The notes beneath the pieces are model-generated. The model was given only the letters and a program-made list of their open reading frames with translations. It had not been told where the DNA came from and did no database searches. Both the position numbers and the translations under genes were made by a program. A DNA stretch of 36,578 bases. Source: Candidatus Omnitrophota bacterium. GTDB lineage: Bacteria; Omnitrophota; Gorgyraeia; Zapsychrales; Fredricksoniimonadaceae. The stretch spans positions 1-36,578 of the forward strand of contig JAKFXC010000014.1 in NCBI GenBank assembly GCA_021731625.1, given 5' to 3'. Below, one piece after another: positions 12,017 through 36,578 of this stretch. Positions within the stretch are counted from its first letter, which is position 1. Each line of letters begins with the position of its first letter.

Positions 12017-12871
12017 ATGCTGCTGAACCGCCTCACCCTGCATTTGCCTGAGTCTGCCAAAGAAGCGGCCCGGCTGTTTACAGAGCTGGAGGACGCCAAA
12101 GTGTTGGCCGGAGGGACGTTTTTACTTAACAGCTTGAAATTGCTTAAAACGAAGGGGACCAAGACAGCTAAAAATATTTTAAGTCTGGCTAAAGCGCAGG
12201 ACCTGAAGGGCATTGAGTTAAACCAAGGTGTTTTGTCGATCGGGGCCATGACCACCATCACTGAACTTTTCGAATGCCCGTTGCTAAGGGATAATTTGAG
12301 TTTGCTGCATAAAGTCTGCCGTAATATATCTACCAACCCCATCCGCAATATGGCGACCGTGGGAGGAAATTTGACCTGCCGCTACACCTGGACGGAAATG
12401 GGTGCGGCCATGATTGCCTTGGATGCCACCATGCATTTTTTGTCCGCGGATGGGCAAGAGAACGCCATGCCGGCGGAAGATTTTTTTAAAAATGCTGCCC
12501 GCAGTGAAAAACTATTTACGCACGTTACCATCAAGCACGATCCCAGCGGCCACTTGGCCTACCGACGGGTGAAAAAAACCATGCACGTGGACGTGCCGCT
12601 GTTGGCTGTGTGTGTGAAAACCCATCTCAAAGGCAAACAATGGACCAACACGCGGGTGAGCATCAACAACGGCACCGCTTTTGCGCAGCGGGATTATGCT
12701 TTGGAGGGTTTTCTAAATCAGTCAGTTTCCTCCGCGGACTTAGGTGTCAAAGCCCTCGAACATTTGACCAAAGAAATTTACGACACCCGTTCCAGCGACT
12801 ATAAGCAGCATATGTTCCGGGTCAGTTTAAAATCAGCAATTGAAGAAATTGGGGCCAGGCCCCTATTATGA
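12017..12871 (+). CDS. Molybdenum hydroxylase FAD-binding subunit (CoxM/XdhB-like)
   Basis: KVLAGGTFLLNSLK and PIRNMATVGGNLTCRYTWTEM FAD motifs; followed by 2Fe-2S and Mo subunits. Confidence 0.88.
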   Translation: MLLNRLTLHLPESAKEAARLFTELEDAKVLAGGTFLLNSLKLLKTKGTKTAKNILSLAKAQDLKGIELNQGVLSIGAMTTITELFECPLLRDNLSLLHKVCRNISTNPIRNMATVGGNLTCRYTWTEMGAAMIALDATMHFLSADGQENAMPAEDFFKNAARSEKLFTHVTIKHDPSGHLAYRRVKKTMHVDVPLLAVCVKTHLKGKQWTNTRVSINNGTAFAQRDYALEGFLNQSVSSADLGVKALEHLTKEIYDTRSSDYKQHMFRVSLKSAIEEIGARPLL

Positions 12872-13338
12872 ACCTCTCCTTACGCATCAACAATAATGAT
12901 TATCCGCTCGAACTTCAGGGGCATGAAACGCTGTTGGAAGTTTTGCGGGACCGTTTGCAGTTGACCGGTACCAAGACAGCGTGCCAGGAAAGCGAATGCG
13001 GCACTTGTACAGTCATTAAGAATGGCAAAGCCGTGCTGTCCTGCATCACCCTGGCGGCCAATTGCCAGGGGGACCAAATCCGCACCATCGAAGGTTTGGC
13101 GGAGGGGGATCGCCTGCATCCGGTCCAGGAAGCTTACGTGCAGCACGGGGCTGCCCAGTGCGGGTTTTGCATTCCAGGACTGATCATGTCTTCGACCGCT
13201 TTGCTGGAAAAAAATTCCAAACCAACACAAGAAGACATTGAATATGCCCTGGACGGCAATATCTGCCGCTGCGGCGGATATCCCAAAATTTTTGAGGCCG
13301 TGCGTCAGGCTGCAGAATCGATGGGAAGGGGCGAATAA
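12868..13338 (+). CDS. Molybdenum hydroxylase [2Fe-2S] subunit (CoxS/XdhC-type iron-sulfur)
   Basis: CQESECGTCTVIKNGKAVLSC and CGFCIPG...NICRCGGYPKI two-cluster signature. Confidence 0.95.
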   Translation: MNLSLRINNNDYPLELQGHETLLEVLRDRLQLTGTKTACQESECGTCTVIKNGKAVLSCITLAANCQGDQIRTIEGLAEGDRLHPVQEAYVQHGAAQCGFCIPGLIMSSTALLEKNSKPTQEDIEYALDGNICRCGGYPKIFEAVRQAAESMGRGE

Positions 13339-15671
13339 TGGCGTTGACCACCACCAAATCCAAATACCTTGACAATTATGTGGATCCCGTCGGCAAAAGT
13401 GTGCCGCGGCTGGAAGGCCGGGGTGTGGTGACCGGCCAGCTCAAATATGCCTTTGACATCAGCTTCCCCAATATGCTGGTTGGAAAGATGCTGCGTTCGC
13501 CGCATCCCCATGCCAAAATTGTCAGCATTGACACGACGAAAGCCCTGGCCCTTCCCGGTGTTAAAGCCATTGTCACCAGCAGAGACACGTATCAAATTAA
13601 ATTTGGTTCCAATGAATATTTTTTCCCCCACACCGTCGATCAAATGGCTTTGGAGTCCGACAAGGTGCGTTACATCGGCGACGAAGTGGCGGCTGTGGCC
13701 GCGGTGGATGAAGAGACCGCTAACTTGGCCCTAAGACTCATTGATGTCAAATATGAAATCCTTCCCGGGGTCTTTGAGATCGAAGAGGCCATCAAGCCCG
13801 GCGCCCCTCAAATCCATGAGTCGCTCAATAACATCGCGGTCATTTTACCGGTCAACTTCGGCAACCCCGAGCGGGTCATGAAGGAAGCCGATTACGTGCG
13901 CGAAGACAAATTTTGGTGTCCGGTGGCTCATCCGGCGCCCATGGAACCGCACGTGTGCGTGGGGCAGTGGGAGACCTTCACGAACAAAATCACCTTATGG
14001 TCCTCCAGCCAAGCTCCGTTTAAATGCCGCGAGGCCCTGGCGAAAACTTTAAAAATGGATTTAAACGATGTGCGGGTGATTAAAATGCCCACCGGAGGTG
14101 GCTTCGGCGGTAAGCTGGAAATGCTGCCGATGGATTTTGCCGCTTGCCTGCTTTCTAAAAAGGCCGGTGGGTTTCCGGTTAAAATTTTGCTCACCCGTGA
14201 AGAAGAATTTACCACCACCAGGCGTAAACACGGCATGATTTATAAAATTAAAACCGGGGTAAAAAAAGACGGCACCATTTTAGCCATCACCGGTGAAGTG
14301 CTCGCTGATGGCGGGGCGTATTGCAGTTACGGCCCCACCGTGCTCGCCGCGGCCATTATGCGCATCTTCATGGTGTATAAAATACAGCATTTTCGCATGA
14401 GCGGCTACCGCGTCTACACCAACAACCCGATCAGCGGCGCCATGCGCGGCTTCGGGGGGGTGCAGAGCGGCTTTGCGATCGAGTCCCACATGGACATGAT
14501 CGCCAATGACTTAGGTATGGACCCCGTCGAGTTTCGACTCAAAAATATTACCCACGCCAACATGGTGACGGTCAACAAAATGGTCTTGACCACCAATGGC
14601 TTGCGCGAATGCATTGAAAAGGCCTGCGCGGCCGCCGGGTGGACCAAAAAGCATGGCAAACAAAAACATATCAAACGTGGGATAGGAATCGGCATCGCCG
14701 CCGACGTCATGGGATCCAAAATGTATAAATCGCATGAGTCCGCTGGCGCCATTGTGAAAGTGGAAGAAGACGGGTCGGTGTATTTATTTACCGGCGCTGC
14801 TGACACTGGTCAAGGGTCCAATACGGCCTTGTCTCAAATCGCGGCCCAAGAACTCGGGGTCAGCTTTTCGCGCATCAAATGCAAAGCCGGCGACACTGAA
14901 ATTACGCCTTTTGACACCGGGTCTTTTGCCAGCCGGGTCACGTTTATTTCCGGCAACGCCGCTCTCCTGGGCGCCCGGGACGCCAAAATTCAGATCCTAG
15001 AAATCGTGGCCAAAGAACATAACCTTAATGTCGCCGATCTCGACATCAAAGCCGAACACGTGGTGTTTAGAAACGACGGAAAAAAATTCATCAACTTCGA
15101 TAAGGCCCTTGATCTGTGCTATTCTTTTAACTATGGCAAACAAATCATCGGCCGTGGCAGCTACAACCCCAAAACCACGCCCATTGATTTTCGCACCGGC
15201 GAAGGCAATGTGTCCGGTAGTTACGGGTTTGAGGCCCAAATCGCGGAAGTTGAAGTCAATACCGACACCGGTGAGGTCAAACTGCTGGAATTGTGGGACG
15301 CACACGACATCGGCAAGGCCATCAATCCTCAGTCGGTAGAAGCCCAAATCGAGGGTTCGCTGGCCATGGGCATTGGCTACACTTTTTATGAGGATTTACG
15401 GTTTAAAAACGGGCGGGTGCTGAATGCCAATTTTGCCGGCTACCGGGTGCCACGTTCCATCGGCATCCCAAAAATGAACTCCATTTTGGTAGAAACCAAC
15501 GACCCCGAAGGCCCCTTTGGCGCCAAGGGGATGGGGGAGGCCTCGCTGTTGCCGACTTCCGCCGCCATTGCCAATGCGGTTGAAGACGCCATCGGCGTGC
15601 GCATTAAGGAGCTGCCCATCACTCCGGATAAAATTATTCAGGGTTTACGGGCAGTGAAAGAGAAGAAATAA
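13338..15671 (+). CDS. Molybdenum hydroxylase large (molybdopterin-binding) subunit, xanthine dehydrogenase family
   Basis: KSVPRLEGRGVVTGQLKYAFD, GGGFGGKLE, AMRGFGGVQ, TGAADTGQGSNT and GAKGMGEAS motifs. Confidence 0.93.
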   Translation: MALTTTKSKYLDNYVDPVGKSVPRLEGRGVVTGQLKYAFDISFPNMLVGKMLRSPHPHAKIVSIDTTKALALPGVKAIVTSRDTYQIKFGSNEYFFPHTVDQMALESDKVRYIGDEVAAVAAVDEETANLALRLIDVKYEILPGVFEIEEAIKPGAPQIHESLNNIAVILPVNFGNPERVMKEADYVREDKFWCPVAHPAPMEPHVCVGQWETFTNKITLWSSSQAPFKCREALAKTLKMDLNDVRVIKMPTGGGFGGKLEMLPMDFAACLLSKKAGGFPVKILLTREEEFTTTRRKHGMIYKIKTGVKKDGTILAITGEVLADGGAYCSYGPTVLAAAIMRIFMVYKIQHFRMSGYRVYTNNPISGAMRGFGGVQSGFAIESHMDMIANDLGMDPVEFRLKNITHANMVTVNKMVLTTNGLRECIEKACAAAGWTKKHGKQKHIKRGIGIGIAADVMGSKMYKSHESAGAIVKVEEDGSVYLFTGAADTGQGSNTALSQIAAQELGVSFSRIKCKAGDTEITPFDTGSFASRVTFISGNAALLGARDAKIQILEIVAKEHNLNVADLDIKAEHVVFRNDGKKFINFDKALDLCYSFNYGKQIIGRGSYNPKTTPIDFRTGEGNVSGSYGFEAQIAEVEVNTDTGEVKLLELWDAHDIGKAINPQSVEAQIEGSLAMGIGYTFYEDLRFKNGRVLNANFAGYRVPRSIGIPKMNSILVETNDPEGPFGAKGMGEASLLPTSAAIANAVEDAIGVRIKELPITPDKIIQGLRAVKEKK

Positions 15672-21860: not shown

Positions 21861-22680
21861 TTGTGCCGAATGCTTCGGTGGTGAGTTTGGACAGCCGGAC
21901 CAGAACTTCTTCCGTGTGTGTCGCCAGACGGCTCTCATCTTGATAGGTCCCAACATTAAGAACCCCCACGACTTCCTCTTCATTCTGGTGGTCAAAAATG
22001 GGCAGACTTAAAGAGCATTTCAGCTCGCGGTTATTCATCAAATGCCGAATGCGGTTATTGGTCTGGGTTTCGTGGATAATGAGTGGCACTTTTTGCTGGG
22101 CGACCAGGCCAGCGATGCCTTCGCCGACTTTGCGGGTCACATTGAGGATTTGCTTGTCGCTGATGTCTTTATAAACGGAGACGGTGAGCTCCTGCGTGGT
22201 CTTATTGACCAGCATGATCGAACCCGACTCGGCCTGCGCCACCGACAGGGTCAAATGCAGCAAAGAGTTTAAAAACTCATTGTCCATAAAAATCATTGTC
22301 TGCCGCGCCACTTCCCTGAGCAGATCCAATATATGTTTAATCCCATTATAGTTAAGAACACGTACCTCATCCATATCTAAATTGCCTAAATCGCCTTGTG
22401 GCTTTTTGTTTAGAAATACTGGTCCGAGCATTAAATATTTTTGGCCTGTGGGTATAGCGTAGACCGCACAGCCCAAAGGCCCGGTGTATTTCAGATAGTC
22501 TCCGTCGGGAACAAAATCCTTAAGAACATCCTCTTTAACCAGCTCAGCAGCGATCGCATTCCAGCCATACTCCGCACTGGGCACCAGCACCGGTTTGCCA
22601 GCCGCATCGCTCATAAAAATATTGATGCGCAGCACATCGATGAATTTCTGCAGGATGCTTTCGATTTTGGAATTACTCAT
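21856..22680 (-). CDS. PocR-like/GAF domain sensory protein
   Basis: C-terminal GAF domain (AESGSIMLVNKTTQELTVSVYKDI...GEGIAGLVAQQKVPLII...SLSLPIF...VVGVLNVG). Confidence 0.75.
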   Translation of the reverse strand: MSNSKIESILQKFIDVLRINIFMSDAAGKPVLVPSAEYGWNAIAAELVKEDVLKDFVPDGDYLKYTGPLGCAVYAIPTGQKYLMLGPVFLNKKPQGDLGNLDMDEVRVLNYNGIKHILDLLREVARQTMIFMDNEFLNSLLHLTLSVAQAESGSIMLVNKTTQELTVSVYKDISDKQILNVTRKVGEGIAGLVAQQKVPLIIHETQTNNRIRHLMNNRELKCSLSLPIFDHQNEEEVVGVLNVGTYQDESRLATHTEEVLVRLSKLTTEAFGTK

Positions 22681-24052
22681 GAAGTTTGATGCCGTATTTT
22701 TTTATTTTATTATAGAGCGTAGCGCGGTTGATCCCCAGACGCTCGGCGGCTCGGCTGCGATTGTACTGGCAATCTTTAAGCGTTGCCAAAATCAAATCTT
22801 TGGTGGGCTCAGCCAAACCTTCTTTTAAGGATTGCCCAGCGGATTTTTTGAGCACACCCCGCTCCAGGTTGCGAGGCATATCTTCAGGAGCCAACACCGG
22901 CTTCTTGCTCATAATGACAGCCCCTTCAATGACATGCTCCAACTGCCGCACGTTTCCCGGCCACGGATGCTCCATAAAGATGTCCCGTAATTCGTCGGAA
23001 ATGCCTTTCACCTGTTTCTTATTTTGTTTGTTCGAAATGGCAATGAAATGTTCGACCAACAGATCAATATCTTCTCGTCGTTCGCGCAGCGGCGGCAATA
23101 CGATGGGGATGACATGGATGCGGTAATACAAATCCTCACGGAATGCCCCCTCCTCCACCATGGTTTCCAGGTCTTGGTTAGTGGCCACGATGATGCGGGC
23201 GTCGGTTTTTTTGGTTTCCGTGTCCCCCACCCGCTCGTACCCTCCGTCTTGCAAAATTCTTAGCAGCTTGACCTGCAGGCCGGCAGAACAGGTGTCGATT
23301 TCATCTAAAAAAATCGTCCCCTCGTGTGCTGCCTCAAATCGCCCGATTTTATCTTTGATCGCCCCTGTAAAGGAGCCTTTGGCGTGCCCAAAAAGTTCGC
23401 TTTCCAAGAGGGTTTCAGACAAAGCCCCGCAGCTGATTTCCACGAATGGTTTATTTTTGCGGGCCTGATCGTTTTGGTAAATCGCCCTGGCAGCAATGCC
23501 TTTGCCGGTACCGCTTTCCCCTAAAATCATAATGGTGGCATTGGTATTGGCCACCGATTCGATCATTTGGTAAACGCTTTGCATGGCAAGGCTGTTGCCG
23601 ACCAGCCCAAAAAAACCAGAACGAGCTTGTTTGGGATGGCTCTGTTTGAGATTCAAATTTTCTTGAAGGATATGTTTCTTCTCGATGATTTTTTTAATCA
23701 ACATCTTGACTTCGTCGTCTGCAATTGGTTTGGTGATGTAATCAAAGGCTTTCTTCTTCATGGCCTGGACCGCGGACTCGATGCTGCCGAAACCGGTGAT
23801 CAAAATAACTTCTGTGGTGGGAGAGTGCCTTTTGATATGGTCCAAAAGTTCAAGGCCGTTCATTTTAGGCAGCTGCAAATCGGTGATGGCCACATCAAAG
23901 GTGTTCTGTTCGACCAAGCGGCAGGCCTCCTCTCCGCTGGAGGCCATGTGGCAGTCATACCCGTCCATTTTTAGAATTTCATACAATGATTTACGGATGA
24001 GCGGTTCGTCATCCACAATCAAAATGCGGTGTTTGGTTTCCTTGCCTGTCAT
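22673..24052 (-). CDS. NtrC-family sigma-54-dependent response regulator (REC-AAA+-Fis HTH)
   Basis: ILIVDDEPLIRKSL...DLQLPKMNG, GESGTGKG Walker A, ELFGHAKGSFTGA, GTIFLDEID, C-terminal NRSRAAERLGINRATLYNKIKKYGI. Confidence 0.95.
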   Translation of the reverse strand: MTGKETKHRILIVDDEPLIRKSLYEILKMDGYDCHMASSGEEACRLVEQNTFDVAITDLQLPKMNGLELLDHIKRHSPTTEVILITGFGSIESAVQAMKKKAFDYITKPIADDEVKMLIKKIIEKKHILQENLNLKQSHPKQARSGFFGLVGNSLAMQSVYQMIESVANTNATIMILGESGTGKGIAARAIYQNDQARKNKPFVEISCGALSETLLESELFGHAKGSFTGAIKDKIGRFEAAHEGTIFLDEIDTCSAGLQVKLLRILQDGGYERVGDTETKKTDARIIVATNQDLETMVEEGAFREDLYYRIHVIPIVLPPLRERREDIDLLVEHFIAISNKQNKKQVKGISDELRDIFMEHPWPGNVRQLEHVIEGAVIMSKKPVLAPEDMPRNLERGVLKKSAGQSLKEGLAEPTKDLILATLKDCQYNRSRAAERLGINRATLYNKIKKYGIKLHE

Positions 24053-24061: not shown

Positions 24062-25282
24062 TTAAGTAGGTAAGACCACCGTAAAGATGGTGCCTTGGTG
24101 TGACGTGCTTTGAACATCGATTTTGCCGTTATAGTTTTTGACAATTTCACTCACAATGGTCAGACCCAAGCCGCAACCTTGCTCGATTTGCTTCGTGGTG
24201 AAAAAGGGCTCAAAAATTTTCTCCAGATTTTCCTGCGGAATCCCTTTGCCATTGTCTTTCACGGCAATTGTGACATGACCCTGGCCAGAGGCGGTGCGGA
24301 TGTCAATGGTCCCTCCGCGCTCTAGCGCGTCTAGGGCATTGCGCACCAGGTTATGCACAATACGCTCAAGCCCCCAGTCCGCAATGGGGGGAAGATGTGG
24401 GGCAAGCGCTTTAGTCACCACGGCATTCTTCTGGATGAGCTGCGGGGCCAGGTCTTTGATCACCGCCTCAACTGCCGCGTTCACATCAACCTTGTCCTTG
24501 ACCGGCCGGGTGTTGCGCGCGCAGGCCAACAGATTTTGCACAATATTGGACATGCGCTTTAAACCCATTTTGACTTCCAACAAATACTCTCGCACCACCG
24601 GTTGTTCTTCCCCTAAGAGCTGCAGGGCTAAATTGGTATACCGCATGACCCCATCTAGAGGGTTGTTAAACTCATGCGCAATGCCACCGACAAGCTTACC
24701 TAAGGACGCAAGTCGTTCCTGCTGAACCACTTTATGCTGTAATTTCTTTGTTTCTTGGGATGCTTGCTCCACAAATTGCTTAAAATGCGACTGCAGCTGC
24801 ACCCGCTGCACATTCAAGGCAATTTGGCTGGAGACAAAATCCAACAGCTCCATATCGTAATTTGAAAATGATTTGCCCGACAATTTATCTGAGATATTAA
24901 TGATACCAATGACCTTGTCTTTAAGCATTAATGGGGCACAGACAAAAGAAGACGTTTTATATCCTTCCCGGGGCTGGTAATTCTTAAACCGCCTGTCCTT
25001 GGCAATATTATCAACATACATGGGTTTTTTAAGCTTGACGACCTTCCCCATCACACCTTGTCCCAGCCGCTTGGACATGATGATTTTTTCGGCCTGTTTC
25101 ATCCCCACGCAAGCCTGCAGGCAGAGGTCTTTACTCGCAAAAATATAAATAGATCCTCGCCGGGCCTCAAATAGGTCAACAGCCAATTGCAAAGATACTT
25201 GAAAGAGTTTACGGGCGCTGCCCGCCTGCTTGCCGGCGGTGCAGACGTCGTTGACTCGAGAAAGGAAATCCACGCTTTTCAT
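24062..25282 (-). CDS. GAF-domain sensor histidine kinase (no obvious TM segment)
   Basis: GAF region, then GGIAHEFNNPLDGV H-box, VHNLVRNALDAL N-box, DNGKGIPQENLEKIFEPFFTTK, GCGLGLTIV. Confidence 0.95.
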   Translation of the reverse strand: MKSVDFLSRVNDVCTAGKQAGSARKLFQVSLQLAVDLFEARRGSIYIFASKDLCLQACVGMKQAEKIIMSKRLGQGVMGKVVKLKKPMYVDNIAKDRRFKNYQPREGYKTSSFVCAPLMLKDKVIGIINISDKLSGKSFSNYDMELLDFVSSQIALNVQRVQLQSHFKQFVEQASQETKKLQHKVVQQERLASLGKLVGGIAHEFNNPLDGVMRYTNLALQLLGEEQPVVREYLLEVKMGLKRMSNIVQNLLACARNTRPVKDKVDVNAAVEAVIKDLAPQLIQKNAVVTKALAPHLPPIADWGLERIVHNLVRNALDALERGGTIDIRTASGQGHVTIAVKDNGKGIPQENLEKIFEPFFTTKQIEQGCGLGLTIVSEIVKNYNGKIDVQSTSHQGTIFTVVLPT

Positions 25283-26166
25283 GGTTTCTTGGGCCGGATG
25301 GTCACCCCTTTGCGTTGCAATAATTCCAGCTGGGTGATCATGTTTTTTAAGATCGGAACCACGCCATGCTTTGGATAACGCTGGATAAATCGCTGGTATA
25401 TCTTGATGGCCATGGCGTAGTCGTGCAATTGGGTAACACAGAGGGTATTAATGGTTCGAATGGCTTCTTTGAGGGAGTATCCGCGGGGGTAGGTCATGAT
25501 CCACTCCTCCATCCCCTGCACCGCCTCGGCATAGCGGCCTTGAGACAATCGGGACAGGGACATTAAATTCATGGATTCATAGGCCAACGATGATTTGGGG
25601 TATTGGGTGAGAATATTTTTATAAAACTGATACGCCTCCTCATAGGCAGAGTTGGCTTGCGCTTTCATGCCCTTAGACTCGTAATAACGCCCGACATACA
25701 TCGGCACAAAAAATCCGGTCTTAGTCAAGGGATAGCGTTGGTTGACTGCTTTATACTGGGCCAGGGCCTGGTCCCAATCTCCCTCATATTGGTAAGATTG
25801 CGCAATGTCGGCCTCTACTTTGGCCATCAGTTCCTGATTACCATTGCTAAGCGGTAAGGCCTTAACAAATTCCGTCCTTGCTGCTGGAAAATCTTTTCTG
25901 TAAATATATAAGTTGCCCAGCATGATCTGACCTTCCACCGACAAAGGCGACTTGTGATAACGCCGCACATAATTTTCATATTGACCTTTCAATTGCCCGA
26001 ACTCGTAATCCGTCACCGGCGCGCGGTTTTTGACCAAGCTGCCGAATTTTTTATTGATTTTCCACAACGCCCGTTCCGTTTTATACTCACCGCTGTCCAA
26101 AACGGTCAGTAAGGCGTACACCCCGGTTAGGAGCACTAAAGAGATTATGACAAACCGTTTCATCAT
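25279..26166 (-). CDS. TPR-repeat protein, N-terminally membrane anchored
   Basis: N-terminal hydrophobic anchor; repeated YxxAxxxYxxxxxxYP helices; overlaps neighbouring CDSs. Confidence 0.8.
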   Translation of the reverse strand: MMKRFVIISLVLLTGVYALLTVLDSGEYKTERALWKINKKFGSLVKNRAPVTDYEFGQLKGQYENYVRRYHKSPLSVEGQIMLGNLYIYRKDFPAARTEFVKALPLSNGNQELMAKVEADIAQSYQYEGDWDQALAQYKAVNQRYPLTKTGFFVPMYVGRYYESKGMKAQANSAYEEAYQFYKNILTQYPKSSLAYESMNLMSLSRLSQGRYAEAVQGMEEWIMTYPRGYSLKEAIRTINTLCVTQLHDYAMAIKIYQRFIQRYPKHGVVPILKNMITQLELLQRKGVTIRPKKP

Positions 26167-27023
26167 GATTCTTTTTTATACAGATAAAAAATGGTGGCAG
26201 CGGCCATGATGAAGGCATTGACCGCAATGGTTATAATGGCGCTTAATACAATCACCAGGATTTGAATTTCCGGGCCGCTTAAAGAGGCTAAGAAACCGAC
26301 GTGATTACGCAAGATCAAAATCGGGATGTAGAAGAGGCTTGGGATGAGCACGATCACCAGGCTAAGCCACATTGAGCTGCCCAATACCTTGAAATTTTCT
26401 ATCAAGGCGGAAGCAATCTTTTTCTGATGCACCATGATGATCGGGACCACGTACACAAACAAGGTGGTCACTAGAATGCTGGCGATAAATTGCACGTAAG
26501 GCGCGCCTTGAATGACCAGTTGCTTGATCCAGAAGAAGATGCCTGCGGTGGAACGGATTTCAAAGGCCCGTTGTATGATCATCCCGTATGCCATGCTCAG
26601 TAAATGGAAAATGCCAAATGTCAGGAACGTCGCTAATAAAACATGGACGTATAGGGGCCAGCATGAGCGCAAAGCTTTGCGAACATCCACCTTTCCCTCA
26701 TTATTATACGTCACGACCAGACGGCTCAGCACCGCCAAGAGGAAACTCCCCACGAATAAGTAAATCACCAGTTGGGCGTAATAAAACAGCTTGGGGAGTA
26801 AGACCAAATTGAGGGGATAATGCAGGTATTTCTCCCCCCAGATGTTTCGGATAATCGGCCCAAAAAATGCCGCCAAAGGAAAACGAGGCGAAAAATACAG
26901 AAGCTCCAGGCAAAGCAATTGGATAAAGGCCAGGACGACCAGCGGATAATACAGTTTTTTATAGGAGACCATGGTATTGAATGTGGAGCGCAATACCATG
27001 AACGGGGAACTTAACTTCGGCAT
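26163..27023 (-). CDS. Polytopic membrane protein, unknown function
   Basis: Multiple hydrophobic helices; start moved to MPKLSSPF (27023) because the annotated start lies in a terminator hairpin. Confidence 0.75.
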   Translation of the reverse strand: MPKLSSPFMVLRSTFNTMVSYKKLYYPLVVLAFIQLLCLELLYFSPRFPLAAFFGPIIRNIWGEKYLHYPLNLVLLPKLFYYAQLVIYLFVGSFLLAVLSRLVVTYNNEGKVDVRKALRSCWPLYVHVLLATFLTFGIFHLLSMAYGMIIQRAFEIRSTAGIFFWIKQLVIQGAPYVQFIASILVTTLFVYVVPIIMVHQKKIASALIENFKVLGSSMWLSLVIVLIPSLFYIPILILRNHVGFLASLSGPEIQILVIVLSAIITIAVNAFIMAAATIFYLYKKES

Positions 27024-27041
27024 AGGGAAATATTGTACCAG

Positions 27042-27078
27042 AAAAAAAAGCAGACCCAATAAAAAACTTGGGCCTGCT
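27042..27078 (-). terminator. Rho-independent terminator downstream of PEP-CTERM gene
   Basis: Minus strand AGCAGGCCCAA-GTTTTTTA-TTGGGTCTGCT (11-bp stem with one G.U) followed by T8. Confidence 0.85.
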
Positions 27079-27098: not shown

Positions 27099-27926
27099 TT
27101 AAGCTCTGCGGCGACGGAGCGAAAAGGCGCCTAATAAACCGCTGCCCAAGAGAGCCATGGACATTGGTTCCGGCACCGGAACCACGCGGTCCACTAAGTA
27201 AATCGTATCATTGAAATCTTCATCCCCCAATTTTCCGTTCGTCAACGCCAGATCTTCCCAGGCAATCAAATAAGGATCTTGCAAGGTGTATTGCTCTGGA
27301 GGCAATCCCAAATACTCAATGTAAAGTGTTTTGCCCCGCAAATCGGTCAGATGGTAGGTCAACATATGGTCGAACCCGTCTGCATTATTCAGAGGATCGG
27401 AATCCCATTCGACGCCGGGGGTTATCCCGTCCGTGCTAAGAAAATTAAATTTGAACTCGGTGCCTGAAGCCAAGGGTGAATTGACCGCGGGAAATGGAAA
27501 CGCGGCAGTGCCGTCTCCCACAATATCAACCCCGTGAAAAGACCCGCCAAAAACATCGATCTTGTTGGTCGGGTCTGTTACATCATAAAGCCGCAGCGTA
27601 TTAAAATTACCAGCGCCGACCCCAATGACCAGAAATGGGGCATTTTCACCCGGGCCGGTTACCTGTTTCCAGGTTTCATCCGGACCAGTGTGCTGAAAAG
27701 GGTCCAAGTCAGAATTGTTCGTGTAAAAACTTCCGAGCAATGCATTAACGGCATTATGGATGTCCACGTTAGGGACATCAAGGCCTTGATTGGGTGTGGG
27801 GGTACTATCGGGGGTAGCATCGTACACATCGGACGTCAATGATGCCGTGTAGGGTCCTGCAGCCCAGCTTATGCTGATGGCTGTAAGGAATATTGTTGTA
27901 GATAAAACCAAGATTTTTTTCATCAT
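27099..27926 (-). CDS. PEP-CTERM sorting-domain protein (DUF4114-like body)
   Basis: Signal peptide MMKKILVLSTTIFLTAISISWAA; GDEDFNDTIYLV; C-terminal VPEPMSMALLGSGLLGAFSLRRRRA. Confidence 0.93.
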   Translation of the reverse strand: MMKKILVLSTTIFLTAISISWAAGPYTASLTSDVYDATPDSTPTPNQGLDVPNVDIHNAVNALLGSFYTNNSDLDPFQHTGPDETWKQVTGPGENAPFLVIGVGAGNFNTLRLYDVTDPTNKIDVFGGSFHGVDIVGDGTAAFPFPAVNSPLASGTEFKFNFLSTDGITPGVEWDSDPLNNADGFDHMLTYHLTDLRGKTLYIEYLGLPPEQYTLQDPYLIAWEDLALTNGKLGDEDFNDTIYLVDRVVPVPEPMSMALLGSGLLGAFSLRRRRA

Positions 27927-27943: not shown

Positions 27944-28783
27944 TTATTTTGCCCCCGTCCCGGTCAAGACCACGCGTACAGTCCGTAATATTACCAGAGC
28001 ATCGGTCCATAAGCAAATGTTTTTAATATACAGCCGGTCGTAGCGGATTTTTTTGCGCACATCGGCCAACGTCTCATCATATCGGTGACGGACCTGGGCC
28101 AAACCAGTGATACCAGGCTTGACCTCCAAACGCGCCGTATAGCCAGGAATTTGGCGGGTGAATTGCTCAACAAACATCGGGCGTTCTGGGCGAGGACCAA
28201 TAATGCTCATGTCGCCCCTTAGCACATTGATAAATTGAGGAATTTCATCTATGCGGCTCTTACGCATAAAGTTGCCTATCATGGGAATCAGACGGGTATC
28301 ATTTTTTACGGCCCAGATCGGACCGGTTTCTTTTTCAGCATCTACCTTCATGGTACGGAATTTATAGATTTCAAATAGTTTCCCATCCTTGCCCACTCTA
28401 ACCTGGGAGAAAAATACTGGGCCCGGAGAAATGCATTTGATTAAAATGGCCGTGATCACTATGATTGGCCAGCATAAAACCAAACCAATCACAGAGCCAA
28501 TGATGTCGACTGCCCGTTTGGCGATGTGGTAGGTCCGGCGCATGAAGCTTACCAACATACTTAAAAATCCGCTGCCAATCAGGGCTAACGTGCTAGGCTC
28601 CGGGGCGTGAGACTTGGACGAAGACTGCCCTTTTGAATAGGTTGGCAATTGAGCGATTTGCTCTGCGCTGTCGTTGGGTTTAATAAATTCAACGGCAGCC
28701 CATGCCTGTGGACTAGCCACCAACAAAAGACCTATAGCCAATAGAATTTTAAGTGTTCTGGTTTTCAATTTGCTATTCATCAT
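27944..28783 (-). CDS. Bacterial sugar transferase (phosphoglycosyl transferase) with N-terminal signal peptide and PEP-CTERM-like segment
   Basis: Signal peptide LKILLAIGLLLVASPQAWAA, then APEPSTLALIGSGFLSMLVSFMRR, then KRAVDIIGSVIGLVLCWPII, KFRTMKVDAE, SRIDEIPQFINVLRGDMSIIGPRPERP, KPGITGLAQV. Confidence 0.93.
   Translation of the reverse strand: MMNSKLKTRTLKILLAIGLLLVASPQAWAAVEFIKPNDSAEQIAQLPTYSKGQSSSKSHAPEPSTLALIGSGFLSMLVSFMRRTYHIAKRAVDIIGSVIGLVLCWPIIVITAILIKCISPGPVFFSQVRVGKDGKLFEIYKFRTMKVDAEKETGPIWAVKNDTRLIPMIGNFMRKSRIDEIPQFINVLRGDMSIIGPRPERPMFVEQFTRQIPGYTARLEVKPGITGLAQVRHRYDETLADVRKKIRYDRLYIKNICLWTDALVILRTVRVVLTGTGAK
28535..28603 (-). other. PEP-CTERM-like sorting segment embedded near the N-terminus of the sugar transferase
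   Basis: PEPSTLALIGSGFLSMLVSFMRR; closely resembles PEPMSMALLGSGLLGAFSLRRRR of the adjacent PEP-CTERM protein. Confidence 0.8.
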
Positions 28784-28835
28784 TTTACTCGCTCTTTAAT
28801 TGATTTATCTTGGGGTTGACTACAAGATAAACAGA

Positions 28836-28850
28836 GCAAAAAACGTGCCA
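28836..28850 (-). promoter_or_regulatory. Sigma-54 (-24/-12) promoter upstream of sugar transferase
   Basis: Minus strand TGGCACGTTTTTTGC: GG-N10-GC spacing and consensus TGGCAC-N5-TTGC; about 50 nt upstream of the start codon. Confidence 0.8.
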
Positions 28851-28932
28851 AGTTAACGGTGTAGGTGCTCCTTTTATAACCACAATCATTTCAAATACTT
28901 AAAACAACAGCTCAAATGAAGAAAAAAGTCAC

Positions 28933-29046: not shown

Positions 29047-29688
29047 TTATGGAAAATAGGCAAATATCTCTGGAGCTACTAGATTGATAAAGGCTTTAAT
29101 TTGTCTTTGTGTCTTCTGTATATCCTTTTGACTAATATCGGCCGAAACACGAATTAAAGCGCTGCTGGAATTCTTCCCTAAAATTGTATTTAAAGCGATC
29201 AGTGCCTGTTGCTTCCAATAATTGGAGGTAAACTGGTCTCCAATCTTAAACCAATAATACGATAAGTGGTCAAAATCACCCTTCGTTAGGTGCAAACGAT
29301 TGGTGTCAATGGTCAAATTTTTATAGTCAATTCTTACAGGATCATGCACCTTCTCATTGACCGTCATCCCATTGCCCGTGTAGCAGATTTCCGGCGGATG
29401 CGATACTTTTCGATTGTGCCTGGAGTATACAATATATAGAAAAACCTGACTTTTGTCAACGGAATTCGTGTAGCGCCGAACAAAAACATTGTTAGTCTCC
29501 AAAATCGCCAAATCATCCTTGGAAATGGGCAAATCCACTCCCTCCCAGGTCCCGATGACCTTTGGAAATTGCGTCACATCGATCGAATCCTCCTGGCCCG
29601 CTTCTTTAAAGAACAAATACCAGGAAATGACCGCAGCAATCATCAAGGTCACGCAGACGGTTACAAAATGACCTGCTTGTTGTCCCAT
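29047..29688 (-). CDS. EpsI family exosortase-associated protein
   Basis: FPKVIGTWEGVDLPISKDDLAILETNNVFVRRYTN...VSHPPEICYTGNGMTV; adjacent to exosortase. Confidence 0.9.
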   Translation of the reverse strand: MGQQAGHFVTVCVTLMIAAVISWYLFFKEAGQEDSIDVTQFPKVIGTWEGVDLPISKDDLAILETNNVFVRRYTNSVDKSQVFLYIVYSRHNRKVSHPPEICYTGNGMTVNEKVHDPVRIDYKNLTIDTNRLHLTKGDFDHLSYYWFKIGDQFTSNYWKQQALIALNTILGKNSSSALIRVSADISQKDIQKTQRQIKAFINLVAPEIFAYFP

Positions 29689-29694: not shown

Positions 29695-30519
29695 TTACTC
29701 CAGTATTTTAACCATCATATGCAGCAACAAATACGCCACGATAAAGACCACAAAGCCGGAGGCATCATGCACAAACCCGGCCGCATACTGCGATCCCCAA
29801 ATTTCGGTCACAAACGACAGCATAAAAATGCGCACCACATTTGTGATCACCGCAATCGGAATGGCTGATAAAAACAAGATCACCTTTTTATAAAATCGAC
29901 CTTTTAACCAATACGCAAACAGACTGCCTAAGGCCATCAACGCGATCAAAGAACGCAGACCGCTGCACAAATCATCCACCACCACCTGCGCGTTGGACAT
30001 CACAATCAAACTGCCCTCTTGGGTGTTCGCAATTCGCACAGAATTTAGTAAAAAAGACGCAATGGTGGCGGCAAACATTTTTAATTGGAAACTGATGTTG
30101 ACCACGGCCACCAATGGTAAAGGCACCATAAACACTAAAAACAGCACCGGAAATAGCAACACCCGCAATGCCGCTGTGCCCAAAAAATGCAGGACCAAGC
30201 CAAGGGCCACAATGATCAGGGAAAAACCGGATGTAAAATAGACTCTGAACACTGCGCTCAGGAGATGACATGCAATGCCCACGTAAAAAAGCCGCAATCC
30301 CCAAGCCGATGCCTTCGGGGGAATGGATTTTAAAACGTCTCTCTGTTGCCAAATAAGATATGCGGACACCAGCGGGATTAAAATGCCGTGGCTGTAGTAA
30401 GAATCCCGGGCAAACCACCGCTCCCACATCCACAATAGCGACGGGATGTACGTGAGAAAAATGAGGAGACCGAAAATTAAAAACTGGTTTTTGTTTAGAC
30501 GTGTCGGGCTTTTTGCCAT
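29695..30519 (-). CDS. Exosortase (EpsH/Xrt family)
   Basis: Polytopic; DDLCSGLRSLIALMALG (Cys), NVVRI (Arg), FVHDASG (His); start at MAKSPTRLNK (30519). Confidence 0.95.
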   Translation of the reverse strand: MAKSPTRLNKNQFLIFGLLIFLTYIPSLLWMWERWFARDSYYSHGILIPLVSAYLIWQQRDVLKSIPPKASAWGLRLFYVGIACHLLSAVFRVYFTSGFSLIIVALGLVLHFLGTAALRVLLFPVLFLVFMVPLPLVAVVNISFQLKMFAATIASFLLNSVRIANTQEGSLIVMSNAQVVVDDLCSGLRSLIALMALGSLFAYWLKGRFYKKVILFLSAIPIAVITNVVRIFMLSFVTEIWGSQYAAGFVHDASGFVVFIVAYLLLHMMVKILE

Positions 30520-31646
30520 GTGATTTCCTGACGAGCATTTAAAAATCGAAAGAAACCGGCCAGTGCCGCCCAATTGAGTAAACAAAACACATAGGGCACG
30601 TAACCGATTCTGGCAACAGCCCCGAGGATACCATATTTTCGCTCTCTTGCCAAGAACCCTAGGACCGCCGTCCCGTAAAAAATGATTTGCGCGTTGAACA
30701 CCATATGATACGGCGCGTGGTGTATGAGCGCAAGGTTTACCAGGAGAAGCGCAATCATCCCAAACGGCGCCCACAGGCGTAAAAATTTATGCGAGAACAA
30801 TTGCACAGCGACGGGGCTGGTAAACGGGTTAAAAAGACCAGGCAACAGACTAAAAATTTGGTAATTGCCAAACAGGGTTCGGGCCTTGCGGCTATATTCC
30901 TCTTTTGGGTTCTGGGCGGCCACGTCGTACGCATGCGCCTGACCATCAAAGACGGCCCGGAACCCTCGCTGGACTATTTTTAAAGGGATAAACATGTCAT
31001 CCAGGACGACCTGCGGCGGCCCGGGTATAAATAGGTGCCGGCGGATGGCGTATATGGCACCGGTGGCACCCAGCATCGAATGTAGCTGGCTTTCCTGATC
31101 TCGAATAAATTTTTCATATTTCCAATACAGATCCACTCCCCTGGCGGTCTGGCTGCTGGGGCTGGAAAAAATCAACTCCCCGCTGGCACATCCCACCTTG
31201 GGATCGGCAAAATTGGCCACCAATTGCCGCAAAGCATCGGCAGCCAGCAATTGACGCGCATCGTTAAAAAAAATGATCTCCCCTTTGGCTTCTGTGACTA
31301 ACTCGCTCACCGTGGCCATTTTTCCTCTCCTGCCGGCATGAACGAATAAACGCAGGCGCGGATGATGCAAAGCTTGGATCAGGGTATTAGTGTGGTCGGT
31401 GGACCCATCGGAACCGATCAAAATCTCTATTTTCTCCGACGGGTAATCTAATGCGGCCAAATTCTCTATTTTGCGAACAATGACGTCTTCTTCATTATAA
31501 ACCGAAATAACAATCGAGACGGAAGGCACAATGTCGCGCTTGGCGACGGGCTGTGCGAACAGGCGGGCCCATACGGTGACCAGGCACGGATATCCAAAAT
31601 AACAATAGATGAGGAGGGCCAAAAGCAGCCAAAAAAGTATGGTCAT
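30495..31646 (-). CDS. Glycosyltransferase family 2, membrane-associated
   Basis: VSIVISVYNEEDVIVRKIENL, GSDGSTDHT, QVVLDDMFIPLK; ATG at 31646 overlaps the upstream stop (ATGA). Confidence 0.93.
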   Translation of the reverse strand: MTILFWLLLALLIYCYFGYPCLVTVWARLFAQPVAKRDIVPSVSIVISVYNEEDVIVRKIENLAALDYPSEKIEILIGSDGSTDHTNTLIQALHHPRLRLFVHAGRRGKMATVSELVTEAKGEIIFFNDARQLLAADALRQLVANFADPKVGCASGELIFSSPSSQTARGVDLYWKYEKFIRDQESQLHSMLGATGAIYAIRRHLFIPGPPQVVLDDMFIPLKIVQRGFRAVFDGQAHAYDVAAQNPKEEYSRKARTLFGNYQIFSLLPGLFNPFTSPVAVQLFSHKFLRLWAPFGMIALLLVNLALIHHAPYHMVFNAQIIFYGTAVLGFLARERKYGILGAVARIGYVPYVFCLLNWAALAGFFRFLNARQEITWQKARHV

Positions 31647-32377
31647 TGAGATATACGGATCAAAATCTTTCGGATCCAATTGTAGCCGTTTTCACGAAAA
31701 ATAGTCTTGGCTGCTTTTTTAAAAAATTCTGCCCAGGTTTCCATGACCGGAGTTTTGCCATGCATGGCCATGGCGAAACGCTTAATGTTCCAGCTGCCTT
31801 TGACCGCGATGCGGGGCTGGCACTCCGTGTGGATGTGGAAGGGTTTATCAGAAATAAAAACATTCTTATATCCCTGCTGCTTGGCTGTGCGCAGGACCTT
31901 GTCGTTGCAAAAACCCCGGGGAACGGACAAATCCTCCACCGTCCCGCCCAAATTAGCCTCGATGGTGCGTTTGGACGCCCGCAGCTCTTCCTCGATTAAG
32001 GAATCCGGCAGATTGGTCAAGATGGCGTGGCTTAAGCCATGCGACCCAATGCGCATGCCGGCCTCTTGCAACTCCTTGATGTGGGTCCAGCCCATATAGC
32101 CGGGCTTGCCCACCCGCTTGACGATGATAAAAAAATACGCGGTGCGGCCAAATTCCTTTAACGCCGGAAACGCCACGCTATAATTGTTGATTTCTCCGTC
32201 GTCAAATGTGATAAGCGGATCAAGGCCAGTTTTTTTCAGCCAAGCGAGCTGTTGCCGAAAACGGTCTTCCGACACGTCATAGAGTTCGGCCCCCACCTCA
32301 CGGTCCGGGGGTATAGGAGACTTCGCCGACAAGATGCCGTGGTACATCAATACGTTCAAGGGGAAATCTCCTTCCAT
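31643..32377 (-). CDS. Polysaccharide deacetylase (NodB-like)
   Basis: LITFDDGEINNYSVAFPALKEFGRTAYFFI, MRIGSHGLSHAILTNL, FSVP-like LSVPRGF. Confidence 0.92.
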   Translation of the reverse strand: MEGDFPLNVLMYHGILSAKSPIPPDREVGAELYDVSEDRFRQQLAWLKKTGLDPLITFDDGEINNYSVAFPALKEFGRTAYFFIIVKRVGKPGYMGWTHIKELQEAGMRIGSHGLSHAILTNLPDSLIEEELRASKRTIEANLGGTVEDLSVPRGFCNDKVLRTAKQQGYKNVFISDKPFHIHTECQPRIAVKGSWNIKRFAMAMHGKTPVMETWAEFFKKAAKTIFRENGYNWIRKILIRISQ

Positions 32378-33495
32378 GAATTTGGTTTTGCGGCAATGCC
32401 TGTGGTGCTGCCGCCCCCTAAGCGTTCAAACCCCGGAGGGTATTGCCCTTGGGCAGCCATGTTGGCATAGTTAAAAACTTTGGTTGACCAAACATCGCCC
32501 AAGACTATCCCTCCATCGGCCACCACCCCTCCATTGGTCACCGAGGTGTCCAGGATTTTATCAAAAGTGGCGACCCCGTGGGTGTAAACCAATCCGCGGT
32601 GCGAACTGGGGGCCGAAACACTTTCACGATATCCTCCCCAGGCAATAATGTTAAACTGTGAACCCGCAGCCTGAAACCCGGACTGGTTAAATGTCACTGT
32701 TCCGGTGGTAATGACCGTGACGCTTTGGTTGGGACCCACCAACCCGTTGGAATTGATAACCACATCTGTGCTGCCCTCATTTCCCTCGATGTAGATGATC
32801 TTCTTACCAGCCAGGGCCTGGGCTGTCACAGGGTACGTGTCCTGGCTTTGGACATGCACAATTTCATTTTCGCTGTATCCTGCCAGCAGGGCCCGATTAT
32901 TGGCGACAAAATTAGAAAAAGAATTTGCCCCTGCTTTTGGCACATAATTTAAAGAGGTGAGGTTCGGGTCCACCCCCTCCTGGGTATCTTCAAAAAATAC
33001 GTCGGCATTCTTCGACGTGCCATTGATTTCCCCGCTCACCCGGGTTTGGCCGTTAAAGATGGCAGACACTTTATTGCCGTTGATGGAAATATTTCCTTTG
33101 CTAGAGACAGCATTTTTATACACCTCGGGAACCAACGCCGGATAGGTGATCTGGATTTTTTTCTGCACCCCGGCAAACGTACCAACGGAGGTGATGAAGC
33201 GATACATGGGTTGGGTGTCGTCCCTGGAGACATCAATGGTGCCTCCCCCGTAAGCCAGTTGTTTATGCAGGGACTGCTCCAGCATGGCTGGATCGTGCAT
33301 AAACATATTGATCCCGGCTTCCGCCAGCCAAAACGCGGCAATGGAATAATAATACCGACGAGAATAGTTGATTTCATTCACATTGGCCAGCATAAAACTC
33401 GCACCCACCGCAATGAGCATATACAGAATCAAAGCGGCGATGAGCAAAATCGAACCCCGCTGATTATTGAATTTGTTCATTGTTACTTTGAGCAA
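32356..33495 (-). CDS. PilX-like pilus assembly/prepilin-associated protein
   Basis: NNQRGSILLIAALILYMLIAVGASFMLANVNEINYSRRYYYSIAAFWLAEAGIN, PilX_N-type N-terminus; in cluster with two prepilins. Confidence 0.7.
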   Translation of the reverse strand: MLKVTMNKFNNQRGSILLIAALILYMLIAVGASFMLANVNEINYSRRYYYSIAAFWLAEAGINMFMHDPAMLEQSLHKQLAYGGGTIDVSRDDTQPMYRFITSVGTFAGVQKKIQITYPALVPEVYKNAVSSKGNISINGNKVSAIFNGQTRVSGEINGTSKNADVFFEDTQEGVDPNLTSLNYVPKAGANSFSNFVANNRALLAGYSENEIVHVQSQDTYPVTAQALAGKKIIYIEGNEGSTDVVINSNGLVGPNQSVTVITTGTVTFNQSGFQAAGSQFNIIAWGGYRESVSAPSSHRGLVYTHGVATFDKILDTSVTNGGVVADGGIVLGDVWSTKVFNYANMAAQGQYPPGFERLGGGSTTGIAAKPNSWKEISP

Positions 33496-33964
33496 ACAGC
33501 CCGGTTTTGGCCCTTAAAGCGATTTTTTCCTTTAATTGAAATTCCTGCCCTCCTTTGGTCGATAAGGCCACAATGACTTCGTGGTCTTGCGGCGCGGAAA
33601 AGGAAACGGAAGAAATATTATACGCCATGACGCGTTGGTTGGCATAATTTGTGCGGATAATTTTGCGGGCATCCGCTCCCTGGTCGGTCCAGGTGTAGGC
33701 GATCTCTCCCCATTTGGGACGGACAAAAGTCATTTTGACCTGCTGCTCGCTCGTTACGATAAATATATTGCGGGACTCGCGCAATTCATGTGCCATGGCT
33801 GCCAAGAGGCTCCGCAGCTCCTGCTTGGGCACTATGTCCGCAGCATATCGATCCCAGGACCGCTGGCTGATCAATAAAACGCTGTACATGGAACCCGCCA
33901 TCACCGTAAAGATGGCCAGCACAATCAAGACTTCGATTAACGTAAAGGCTAAAGAAGTTTTCAT
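33464..33964 (-). CDS. Type IV prepilin-like protein (PilW/GspJ-like)
   Basis: AFTLIEVLIVLAIFTVMAGSMYSVL prepilin N-methylation motif; ATG at 33964. Confidence 0.85.
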   Translation of the reverse strand: MKTSLAFTLIEVLIVLAIFTVMAGSMYSVLLISQRSWDRYAADIVPKQELRSLLAAMAHELRESRNIFIVTSEQQVKMTFVRPKWGEIAYTWTDQGADARKIIRTNYANQRVMAYNISSVSFSAPQDHEVIVALSTKGGQEFQLKEKIALRAKTGLFAQSNNEQIQ

Positions 33965-34341
33965 CGCGTCAATTTTGTGTAGATAGAAATATTTTTTGTC
34001 CCGCCCTTGCGTTGCCATTGCACAAAGACTTGGATGTCCAAAGGATTAGCGGTGATCTGCGGGAAAATAACCTGCACCTCTTCTTGAGGCAACTGTCGAA
34101 TGTCTTGGGACTCGATCCATTTTTTCCAGTCGGTGCGGACAATCTCGGAGAGGGTGGCCTTGTTTTGTATTTCCTCTAAGACATGCTGGGCATGGGTGCT
34201 GGCAACGGTGATGTCCCAGGACGATTGCGTGGAGGTCATGGAATTTATAAACAGCAGGAGTGTGCCGCACATGCCAATCAAGAGGACATAGGCGGCGATT
34301 AAAAGTTCAAATAAAGTAAAGCCTTGTCTACGGTTATGCAT
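33961..34341 (-). CDS. Type IV prepilin-like protein (PilV/GspI-like)
   Basis: MHNRRQGFTLFELLIAAYVLLIGMCGTLLLF prepilin motif; ATG at 34341. Confidence 0.85.
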   Translation of the reverse strand: MHNRRQGFTLFELLIAAYVLLIGMCGTLLLFINSMTSTQSSWDITVASTHAQHVLEEIQNKATLSEIVRTDWKKWIESQDIRQLPQEEVQVIFPQITANPLDIQVFVQWQRKGGTKNISIYTKLTR

Positions 34342-34470
34342 AGTGAGGCACACCTAGTGCGACACCTAAGTTGCTGCTAGGCCGTAGCCAATTGGGTGTC
34401 AATTCGATCTGCTCCTCAGGACGCCTGCCATTAATTCTTTTTCAAAACAGGCTCCACACGTCAGGCTCTC

Positions 34471-34536: not shown

Positions 34537-36578
34537 TTAATTTTTCCTCCACCAATACCAACCTCTTTTTGCTGGTTGAGCCGATGCAGGTTTATTAACG
34601 GTCGTTGACTGACGCGGTGTCACCGATTTAGAGGTCACGCTGACACTTTGGGTGACCGTACCCCCTTTGCCGGTACAAAACAGTCCGTAAGTGGTTGTTC
34701 CGGTCGCTGGAGTTACTGTCTGCGCCCCGTTTAATGCCTTGCTGCCTCCCCATGCTTGTGTGGCCGTGCACACCGTGGCATTGGTCGACTTCCAGCTTAA
34801 GGAAATCGATGTGCCGGATTGGATCGACGTAGAGCTGGCGGACAGCACCAAGGATGGCTCTGGGAATACCTCAGGAACTGGTACCGGTTCCGGAACTGGC
34901 GGAGTCGGAGGCGGTGGCGGGGGTTCAGGCGCTGCCGGCGGTGTCGGAACTGAAACCAACGGCGGTGTCGCATCGACCACGGGCGGTGGCGTCGGAGTTG
35001 GAGCCGGCGTTGGTACTGGTGTTGGTTCAGGCGCAGGTGGTGTCGGTTCAGGCGCTGGAGCTGGTGTCGGTGCTGGCGTTGGTTCCGGAGCGGGCGATGT
35101 CGGTGGCACCGAAATCAGCGGAGGTGTCGGATCAACCACCGGTGGTGGTGGCGTCGGTAGCGGAGGTTCCGGAGCCGGTGTCGGAGCTGGAGCCGGCGTT
35201 GGTACTGGTGGCGTTGGCGTCGGTGCCGGAGGCGTAGGTTCAGGGGCCGCAGGTGGTACAGTCGGCTCGGGCACAGGAATTGATGGAACGATCCCCCCAA
35301 CCGTCGGCACAGACCCAAACTGCAAAGCCCCTATATCCCAAGCCGTGGTCCCCCGATCAAAATAATTGAAATCGAGGCTGGAGGCGCCCGGAATCACTAA
35401 TCCGGCCTTGATGGCCGGGCTAGTCGCCTGCAAATTCACGTTATAGGCATTGCCTTTATAGTACGGCACAAGGGGATCAACGAATTTGGGGTCCACACAT
35501 TTGGAATTTGGTTTTCCTGTGCAATCCGAACTGATGGTTTTAGTTCCATAGACAATGGAATAATTGTCATTAAATTTAAGGTTGCCGCAAGGGCCATCCC
35601 CGTTACCCGTAGCACCCGAGGCATAATACAGGCCAGCCGTGTCTCCGCCGTTAAAATCTGGGCCACCGAGAAAAATATTATTAAGCGACTGAATGCTTTC
35701 CGTTCCATCGCAGGATGTTCCTGAGGAAAGGATCAGAGTATCTCCATTGGAGGTAATTGTGGAATTTATAATAGACATTGAGGTTCCGAAGTTCGCATAA
35801 GTAAGTGTAATGGAACCCCCGAAAGCTCGGCAATGATCGAAATTGCCGGAATTCCAAGTGATGGGGTTATTATTAAAATAGGCACAATTGCCGATAATGA
35901 TCGAATTCTCAATATTTGTGGTGCCGGACACTTTAATTTGATTACCCGCATTGCCTTCAGCCCGAGTCCGTTTGATCGTAATGGTCCCGCCGCCATTGTG
36001 GTAGAGCAAGTCGATTCCGTCTGAGGCATTATGACTGATGTTGCTGTTTGTAAATATCCAATTCGCCCCCGTAAAATGGGTGCCTATGCCGTCTCCATAA
36101 CCCCCCTGGCTTTGGCTGTAACAATTATAAGGAAGCTTACCCGGGTAAGTTTCTCCGCAGCCGTTGTATTCAATGCGCACATTGTCAAAATTCATGGTAC
36201 CAGAATTGGAGGAACTCCCCGCTCCCATGTCCCCATCCCAGCCAACAAATGAGTTAGCAACGATTTGACTGTTTTGGAGCGTCCAATCTTTTAGTCGGGC
36301 AGCATATATCCCTGAATGGGCCAAACCATGGATATTGACATTTTTAAATAAAACATTCGAACTATCTGAAGCTACAATCCCACGTGTTGCCCAGGCCCCA
36401 TAAGGTGCTGAACTGCGGTTACAGGGATTCGGACCAAATTCCTGGCAAGCTGAATGGTCGGTAATTGCCAAACATTGAATTTCAACGTTACTGCTACCGA
36501 TTAAATTTAGTACTTTACTGACGCGCTCATTACCCCACAATTCCGGAGGGTCCTGGCAACCTGAATCCCACCCCTTGC
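34537..36578 (-). CDS. Right-handed beta-helix surface protein with long Pro-rich linker and C-terminal Ig-like domain (partial; 5' end outside window)
   Basis: Frame open to the window edge (KGWDSGCQDPPELWGNE...); right-handed beta-helix style repeats; PAPTPAPEP linker; SLVLSASSTSIQSGTSISLSWKSTNATVCTATQ...TYGLFCTGKGG Ig-like domain. Confidence 0.85.
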   Translation of the reverse strand, partial: KGWDSGCQDPPELWGNERVSKVLNLIGSSNVEIQCLAITDHSACQEFGPNPCNRSSAPYGAWATRGIVASDSSNVLFKNVNIHGLAHSGIYAARLKDWTLQNSQIVANSFVGWDGDMGAGSSSNSGTMNFDNVRIEYNGCGETYPGKLPYNCYSQSQGGYGDGIGTHFTGANWIFTNSNISHNASDGIDLLYHNGGGTITIKRTRAEGNAGNQIKVSGTTNIENSIIIGNCAYFNNNPITWNSGNFDHCRAFGGSITLTYANFGTSMSIINSTITSNGDTLILSSGTSCDGTESIQSLNNIFLGGPDFNGGDTAGLYYASGATGNGDGPCGNLKFNDNYSIVYGTKTISSDCTGKPNSKCVDPKFVDPLVPYYKGNAYNVNLQATSPAIKAGLVIPGASSLDFNYFDRGTTAWDIGALQFGSVPTVGGIVPSIPVPEPTVPPAAPEPTPPAPTPTPPVPTPAPAPTPAPEPPLPTPPPPVVDPTPPLISVPPTSPAPEPTPAPTPAPAPEPTPPAPEPTPVPTPAPTPTPPPVVDATPPLVSVPTPPAAPEPPPPPPTPPVPEPVPVPEVFPEPSLVLSASSTSIQSGTSISLSWKSTNATVCTATQAWGGSKALNGAQTVTPATGTTTYGLFCTGKGGTVTQSVSVTSKSVTPRQSTTVNKPASAQPAKRGWYWWRKN
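34991..35209. repeat. In-frame duplication within the Pro-rich linker (offset 189 bp)
   Basis: GTCGGAG(T/C)TGGAGCCGGCGTTGGTACTGGT at 34991-35020 and 35180-35209 (29/30 identical); protein unit VVD(P/A)TPPL(I/V)SVP appears twice. Confidence 0.7.

Follow-up and report, generated by a model that had tools for sequence, protein, structure and literature searches.

The window analysed here, a stretch of 36,578 nucleotides from a Candidatus Omnitrophota bacterium, carries on its reverse strand a gene (27944..28783; ATG start, 279 amino acids), hereafter PEP-PGT, whose single reading frame joins a signal peptide, a linker, a PEP-CTERM-like anchor and a complete monotopic phosphoglycosyl transferase (PGT), an arrangement first pointed out in a preliminary description of this DNA and borne out by Pfam and NCBIfam matches and by ortholog conservation. 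The signal peptide (MMNSKLKTRTLKILLAIGLLLVASPQAWA, residues 1–29; 28697..28783, reverse strand) is recognisable from sequence and hydropathy in the window's protein, as in most Omnitrophota relatives, with probable cleavage after AWA, a tripeptide conserved in most close orthologs. It is followed by an extracytoplasmic linker of ∼31 residues (AVEFIKPNDSAEQIAQLPTYSKGQSSSKSHA, residues 30–60; 28604..28696, reverse strand). Right behind the signal peptide, positions 28667–28696 (residues 30–39) encode a motif resembling (V/L)SF(V/I)xPxD, which by eye is common to approximately half of the same-order members; the remaining linker is not conserved.

The PEP-CTERM-like segment (PEPSTLALIGSGFLSMLVSFMRR, residues 60–83; 28535..28606, reverse strand) is tripartite, comprising the PEP motif (residues 61–63; 28595–28603, reverse strand), a hydrophobic helix (64–81) and a basic pair of arginines (82–83), all of which are conserved in the relatives. 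It scores 20.6 bits against PF07589, slightly below the cut-off of 20.7, and 16.8 bits against TIGR02595, above the cut-off of 16; taken alone such a score would be marginal, and it is conservation across orthologs that settles the identity of the segment. PEP-CTERM segments have been described as C-terminal virtually without exception (Haft 2006, PMC1569441), whereas here the entire PGT domain follows (residues 89–273; 27965..28519, reverse strand; PF02397, E 7e-66), with a re-entrant helix broken near P106 and a catalytic Asp–Glu pair, D179–E180, that is invariant in 85 homologs.

An AlphaFold2 model of PEP-PGT built on these 85 homologs reached a mean pLDDT of 88.5 (an earlier 18-sequence input gave 57 and was unusable), with a helix at residues 4–23 within the signal peptide, a low-confidence linker at 31–60, and a helix that begins at residue 63 and continues into the first half of the re-entrant helix. 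The unbroken helix of the model (63–103) is not to be read at face value: where a transmembrane helix leads into a re-entrant one, the chain has to turn at the inner face. Foldseek matches the PGT fold to PglC (8e37, E 8e-15) and WbaP (8t53, E 1e-11), a small and a large monotopic PGT, respectively, with which PEP-PGT shares the catalytic fold, re-entrant helix and Asp–Glu pair; PglC, unlike PEP-PGT, lacks an extra transmembrane anchor, and WbaP-type enzymes carry a helix bundle and a nucleotide-sensing domain (PMC10942596) where PEP-PGT has the exosortase signal. The signal peptide and the positive-inside rule together predict an outside N-terminus, with the basic residues and catalytic domain inside, a layout that is topologically coherent, as had been suggested.

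The neighbouring genes, all on the reverse strand, make up an exosortase locus. An exosortase gene (29695..30519, start inferred at MAKSPTRLNK; PF09721 7e-65; TIGR02602 181.8 bits, cut-off 105.55) lies ∼0.9 kb upstream of PEP-PGT, together with the gene for the exosortase-associated protein EpsI (29047..29688; PF11984 2e-35; TIGR02914 96 bits, cut-off 42.8), a syntenic family 2 glycosyltransferase (GT2; 30495..31679; PF00535 5e-20) and a polysaccharide deacetylase (31643..32377; PF01522 5e-22). Directly downstream, a protein with an ordinary C-terminal PEP-CTERM segment (VPEPMSMALLGSGLLGAFSLRRRRA; 27099..27926, start inferred; PF07589 24.8 bits, TIGR02595 24.4 bits) is a probable exosortase substrate, followed by a membrane protein matching no Pfam family (26163..27059), a TPR protein with a weak PrsT-like match (25279..26166), a sensor histidine kinase assigned by profile match and synteny (24062..25282; 96.5 bits against the PrsK model, cut-off 300), and a PrsR-like sigma-54-dependent response regulator (22673..24052; TIGR02915 394.6 bits, below the cut-off of 502.6). 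The order GT2, exosortase, EpsI, gap, PEP-PGT, PEP-CTERM protein(s), membrane protein, TPR protein, histidine kinase and response regulator is conserved in most Omnitrophota loci long enough to display it, and the membrane protein, retained beside the TPR gene in most Omnitrophota exosortase loci examined, is likely an unnamed component of the system. In two loci, 92-residue open reading frames near the fusion (L038:6885-7163 and L076:10740-11018) carry a PEP-CTERM-like segment similar to the fusion's N-terminal portion, and are possible stand-alone mini PEP-CTERM proteins.

A sigma-54 −24/−12 promoter (TTGGCACGTTTTTTGCT; 28835..28851, reverse strand) precedes the PEP-PGT ATG by 51 nt; it has no mismatches to the sigma-54 pattern and is the sole match in the window even when up to one mismatch is allowed. 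Most PEP-PGT loci have a strict sigma-54 promoter ahead of the gene. One is found 15–74 nt before the ATG in 15/18 PEP-PGT orthologs, and across 1.49 Mb of locus sequence, searched on both strands, 26 of the 34 strict sites stand directly before a PEP-PGT gene, where ∼0.3 would be expected by span (relatedness uncorrected). A sigma-54 element upstream of proteobacterial PEP-CTERM genes provides a parallel (PMC1569441), as does pepA of Aquincola, which is RpoN-dependent with a mapped −24/−12 promoter (TGGCAC ... CTGCTT) and is accompanied by genome-encoded PrsK/PrsR-like regulators, although PepA itself, unlike PEP-PGT, is secreted and tagged at its C-terminus in the ordinary way (PMC9850573).

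Genome-wide occurrence points in the same direction as gene order. By sequence, the nearest relatives of the window are Omnitrophota MAGs, in line with its assignment to that phylum. The fusion is carried by 12/37 relatives, with further orthologs found on genome contigs, and an exosortase is present in 12/12 genomes of this set with PEP-PGT vs 5/25 without. In a wider sample of 384 Omnitrophota genomes, which extends PEP-PGT to many families, an exosortase accompanies an exact-PEP PGT in 46/48 genomes vs 79/336 others (Fisher p 3e-23, uncorrected for phylogeny); in both exosortase-less genomes the PEP-PGT gene lies on a contig of 3–4 kb. The coupling to exosortase that had been anticipated is thus strong, combining synteny, the co-occurrence for which a check had been proposed, and the sigma-54 promoter.

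All 18 nearest orthologs combine a signal peptide, variable linker, PEP motif, helix, basic residues and PGT in a single frame, and P61, E62, P63, L68, G72 and M76 are invariant in the 18 aligned full-length sequences, so the PEP-CTERM-type segment proposed at this unusual position is real. An assembly artefact, frameshift or recent fusion is vanishingly improbable, and was ruled out as an explanation because about 50 independent genomes share the uninterrupted frame. An internal start at MRRTYHIAKR was likewise rejected: the methionine of FMRRTYHIAKR is not conserved, the stretch usually reading FVRRTY, FLRKTY or FFRRTY, and the upstream region, whose possible lack of conservation the preliminary description had itself raised, includes the conserved PEP and helix.

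In a tree inferred from the PGT domain alone, the proteins with signal peptide, PEP and PGT form a 58-row Omnitrophota clade (97/87). Column-by-column comparison identifies an exact PEP in 50/58 members; few columns of the N-terminal region are as well conserved as P, E and P, and the linker is free to vary. The other eight carry SEP, PEF, PEA (twice), PEV or none. The expectation that PEP is retained only beside an exosortase was not cleanly borne out, as 6/8 PEP-less members still adjoin an exosortase and have neighbouring substrates that retain PEP; the motif is therefore not indispensable. Repeated loss of exact PEP beside an intact exosortase indicates that some lineages can do without an interaction, and leaves room for the reading that the segment is a mere membrane anchor derived from an old PEP-CTERM gene fusion, with PEP serving as a helix cap or relic and making no exosortase contact. 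In keeping with such an anchor, PGTs of other exosortase loci outside the clade (L138–L142, L144, L145) have two N-terminal helices and no PEP, the homologous helix working without the motif, and the eight losses within the clade are scattered. We nevertheless consider a mere anchor unlikely, given the retention of PEP in 50 divergent Omnitrophota members and in the other-phylum forms described below while flanking residues have changed, the tight exosortase association, and the two PGT copies of genome G365, where the copy adjoining the exosortase has PEP and the distant copy has lost it.

The PEP-less second copy of G365 (L136, G365:C7), far from the exosortase, is followed by a PEP-CTERM gene. 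A similar pattern occurs in G217, where the second copy (L149) is too divergent for placement. Elsewhere outside the clade, PGTs of other exosortase loci (L143, L147, L150–L153) have a cytosolic N-terminus, and some sister PGTs of such loci are without any N-terminal helix. Five of the loci with a two-helix, PEP-less PGT (L138–L141, L144) show a rearranged order of PGT, membrane protein, TPR protein, exosortase, EpsI and kinase.

The homolog search that had been proposed for signal peptide, PEP-CTERM segment and PGT finds the full combination in Omnitrophota, and PEP with PGT in Planctomycetota. Among 199 Planctomycetota genomes searched with the junction profile A2, eight contain a protein in which the match spans both PEP and PGT, and all eight proteins begin with a methionine directly ahead of PEP (e.g. 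MPEPITMAVMGGGLTGLTLRFARRGFREIKRALDL), retaining PEP and helix with neither signal peptide nor cargo. A ribosome-binding-like sequence stands ahead of most of these ATGs, and in loci L182 and L183 a sigma-54 promoter lies 50–52 nt upstream, too close for a signal peptide to fit in between. One Omnitrophota locus (L125) is also of the MPEP form, and its small contig carries EpsI as well; the PGT-only tree places the signal-peptide and MPEP forms of Omnitrophota and Planctomycetota in one clade (97/86). An exosortase occurs in 7/8 Planctomycetota genomes with an MPEP form vs 16/46 others (Fisher p 0.008, relatedness uncorrected), and is directly adjacent to the MPEP-PGT in L178 and L180; in a paralogue from G782 (L181), MSEQ replaces MPEP. 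No fusion was found among the best matches listed for Verrucomicrobiota (241 genomes), nor in two further phyla reached from Gammaproteobacteria and Deltaproteobacteria loci (299 and 198 genomes), a search run without a positive control.

These cargo-free forms bear on the purpose originally proposed for the fusion, the release of a short peptide tag by exosortase, which finds no support in the data: the would-be tag varies from ∼8 to 66 residues across Omnitrophota PEP-PGTs with little sequence conservation, and the Planctomycetota relatives and the one Omnitrophota locus, starting at MPEP, have nothing to release. More generally, the PGT could be a true exosortase substrate, its N-terminal peptide being cut at PEP and either released or joined to an acceptor while helix and PGT stay in the membrane. 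The canonical order of signal peptide, PEP, helix and basic residues is as such a substrate would have it, and the (V/L)SF(V/I)xPxD motif hints that the peptide may matter in about half of the same-order members; this possibility is nonetheless unlikely, as the cargo is overall free to vary in length and sequence, the MPEP forms have no cargo, and position-specific PEP losses leave a presumably working PGT.

Since the segment persists without cargo to sort, recognition or docking is the most economical function, and cutting, which the cargo-free forms could do without while keeping the element, would be secondary. From the anatomy, conservation, gene order, promoter, co-occurrence and cargo-free forms observed, we infer, with a probability of roughly 0.55, that the N-terminal segment is an exosortase-recognition anchor by which the enzyme priming the co-encoded polysaccharide is docked at the exosortase. 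PEP-PGT would then be the priming phosphoglycosyl transferase for an exosortase-linked polysaccharide, and its membrane anchor a functional exosortase-recognition element placed N-terminally instead of C-terminally. In the form present in the window, the signal peptide would carry the N-terminus across the membrane, leaving PEP at the outer face, the anchor helix would re-enter, and the basic residues and catalytic domain would remain cytoplasmic; exosortase may read PEP and helix as in ordinary substrates, and docking would put the maker of the first lipid-linked sugar beside exosortase/EpsI. The sigma-54 promoter would bring about joint production of PEP-PGT and the PEP-CTERM substrates whose genes lie downstream, and exosortase may also cut the signal-peptide forms, although this is probably not the point. 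Judged from sequence, selection acts on the signal segment, and its position, regulon and neighbourhood are those expected if exosortase reads it. A further step, by which PEP-PGT would hand its polyprenyl-diphosphate sugar directly to exosortase, to serve as the acceptor for PEP-CTERM proteins or as a precursor of that acceptor, with the PEP element holding maker and user together, is distinctly speculative and improbable on present evidence.

The link between exosortase and exopolysaccharide production dates back to the discovery of the enzyme and rests chiefly on gene neighbourhood and phylogenetic profile. A priming sugar transferase bearing an exosortase signal, conserved in two phyla, offers a physical lead on this link, the persistence of the arrangement beside an exosortase gene suggesting a physical connection between sugar synthesis and protein sorting; in one phylum PEP-PGT is reduced to the signal and catalytic domain, making MPEP–helix–PGT a minimal natural construct for separating recognition from cleavage. 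With known exosortase substrates (PF07589, TIGR02595) PEP-PGT has in common the tripartite segment, signal peptide, exosortase/EpsI neighbourhood and upstream sigma-54 promoter, but its segment sits N-terminal to a cytoplasmic enzyme, and the Planctomycetota forms dispense with signal peptide and cargo. It also resembles EpsB_2, the XrtA/PEP-CTERM system glycosyltransferase (TIGR03013), a priming sugar transferase whose gene accompanies those of an exosortase and a PEP-CTERM regulator; PEP-PGT scores 269.6 bits against this model, below the cut-off of 393.35, aligning to profile positions 250–443 only, and has the PEP-CTERM anchor instead of the N-terminal domains of the long EpsB_2 model. No published description of a PGT with an N-terminal PEP-CTERM segment was found in the accessible literature, a scope outside which key subscription papers fall.

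Elsewhere in the window, the forward strand (1005–15671) encodes ordinary housekeeping functions, including homoserine dehydrogenase, a PALP-family enzyme, an amino-acid kinase with ACT domains, a LeuA-type enzyme, a leucyl-tRNA synthetase-like protein, quinolinate phosphoribosyltransferase and a molybdopterin oxidoreductase. On the reverse strand, beside pseudopilin-like genes (32356–34353), a large open reading frame matching no Pfam family (34537–36540) has counterparts with ∼56–62% identity over ∼430 residues in the syntenic loci L073, L082 and L083.
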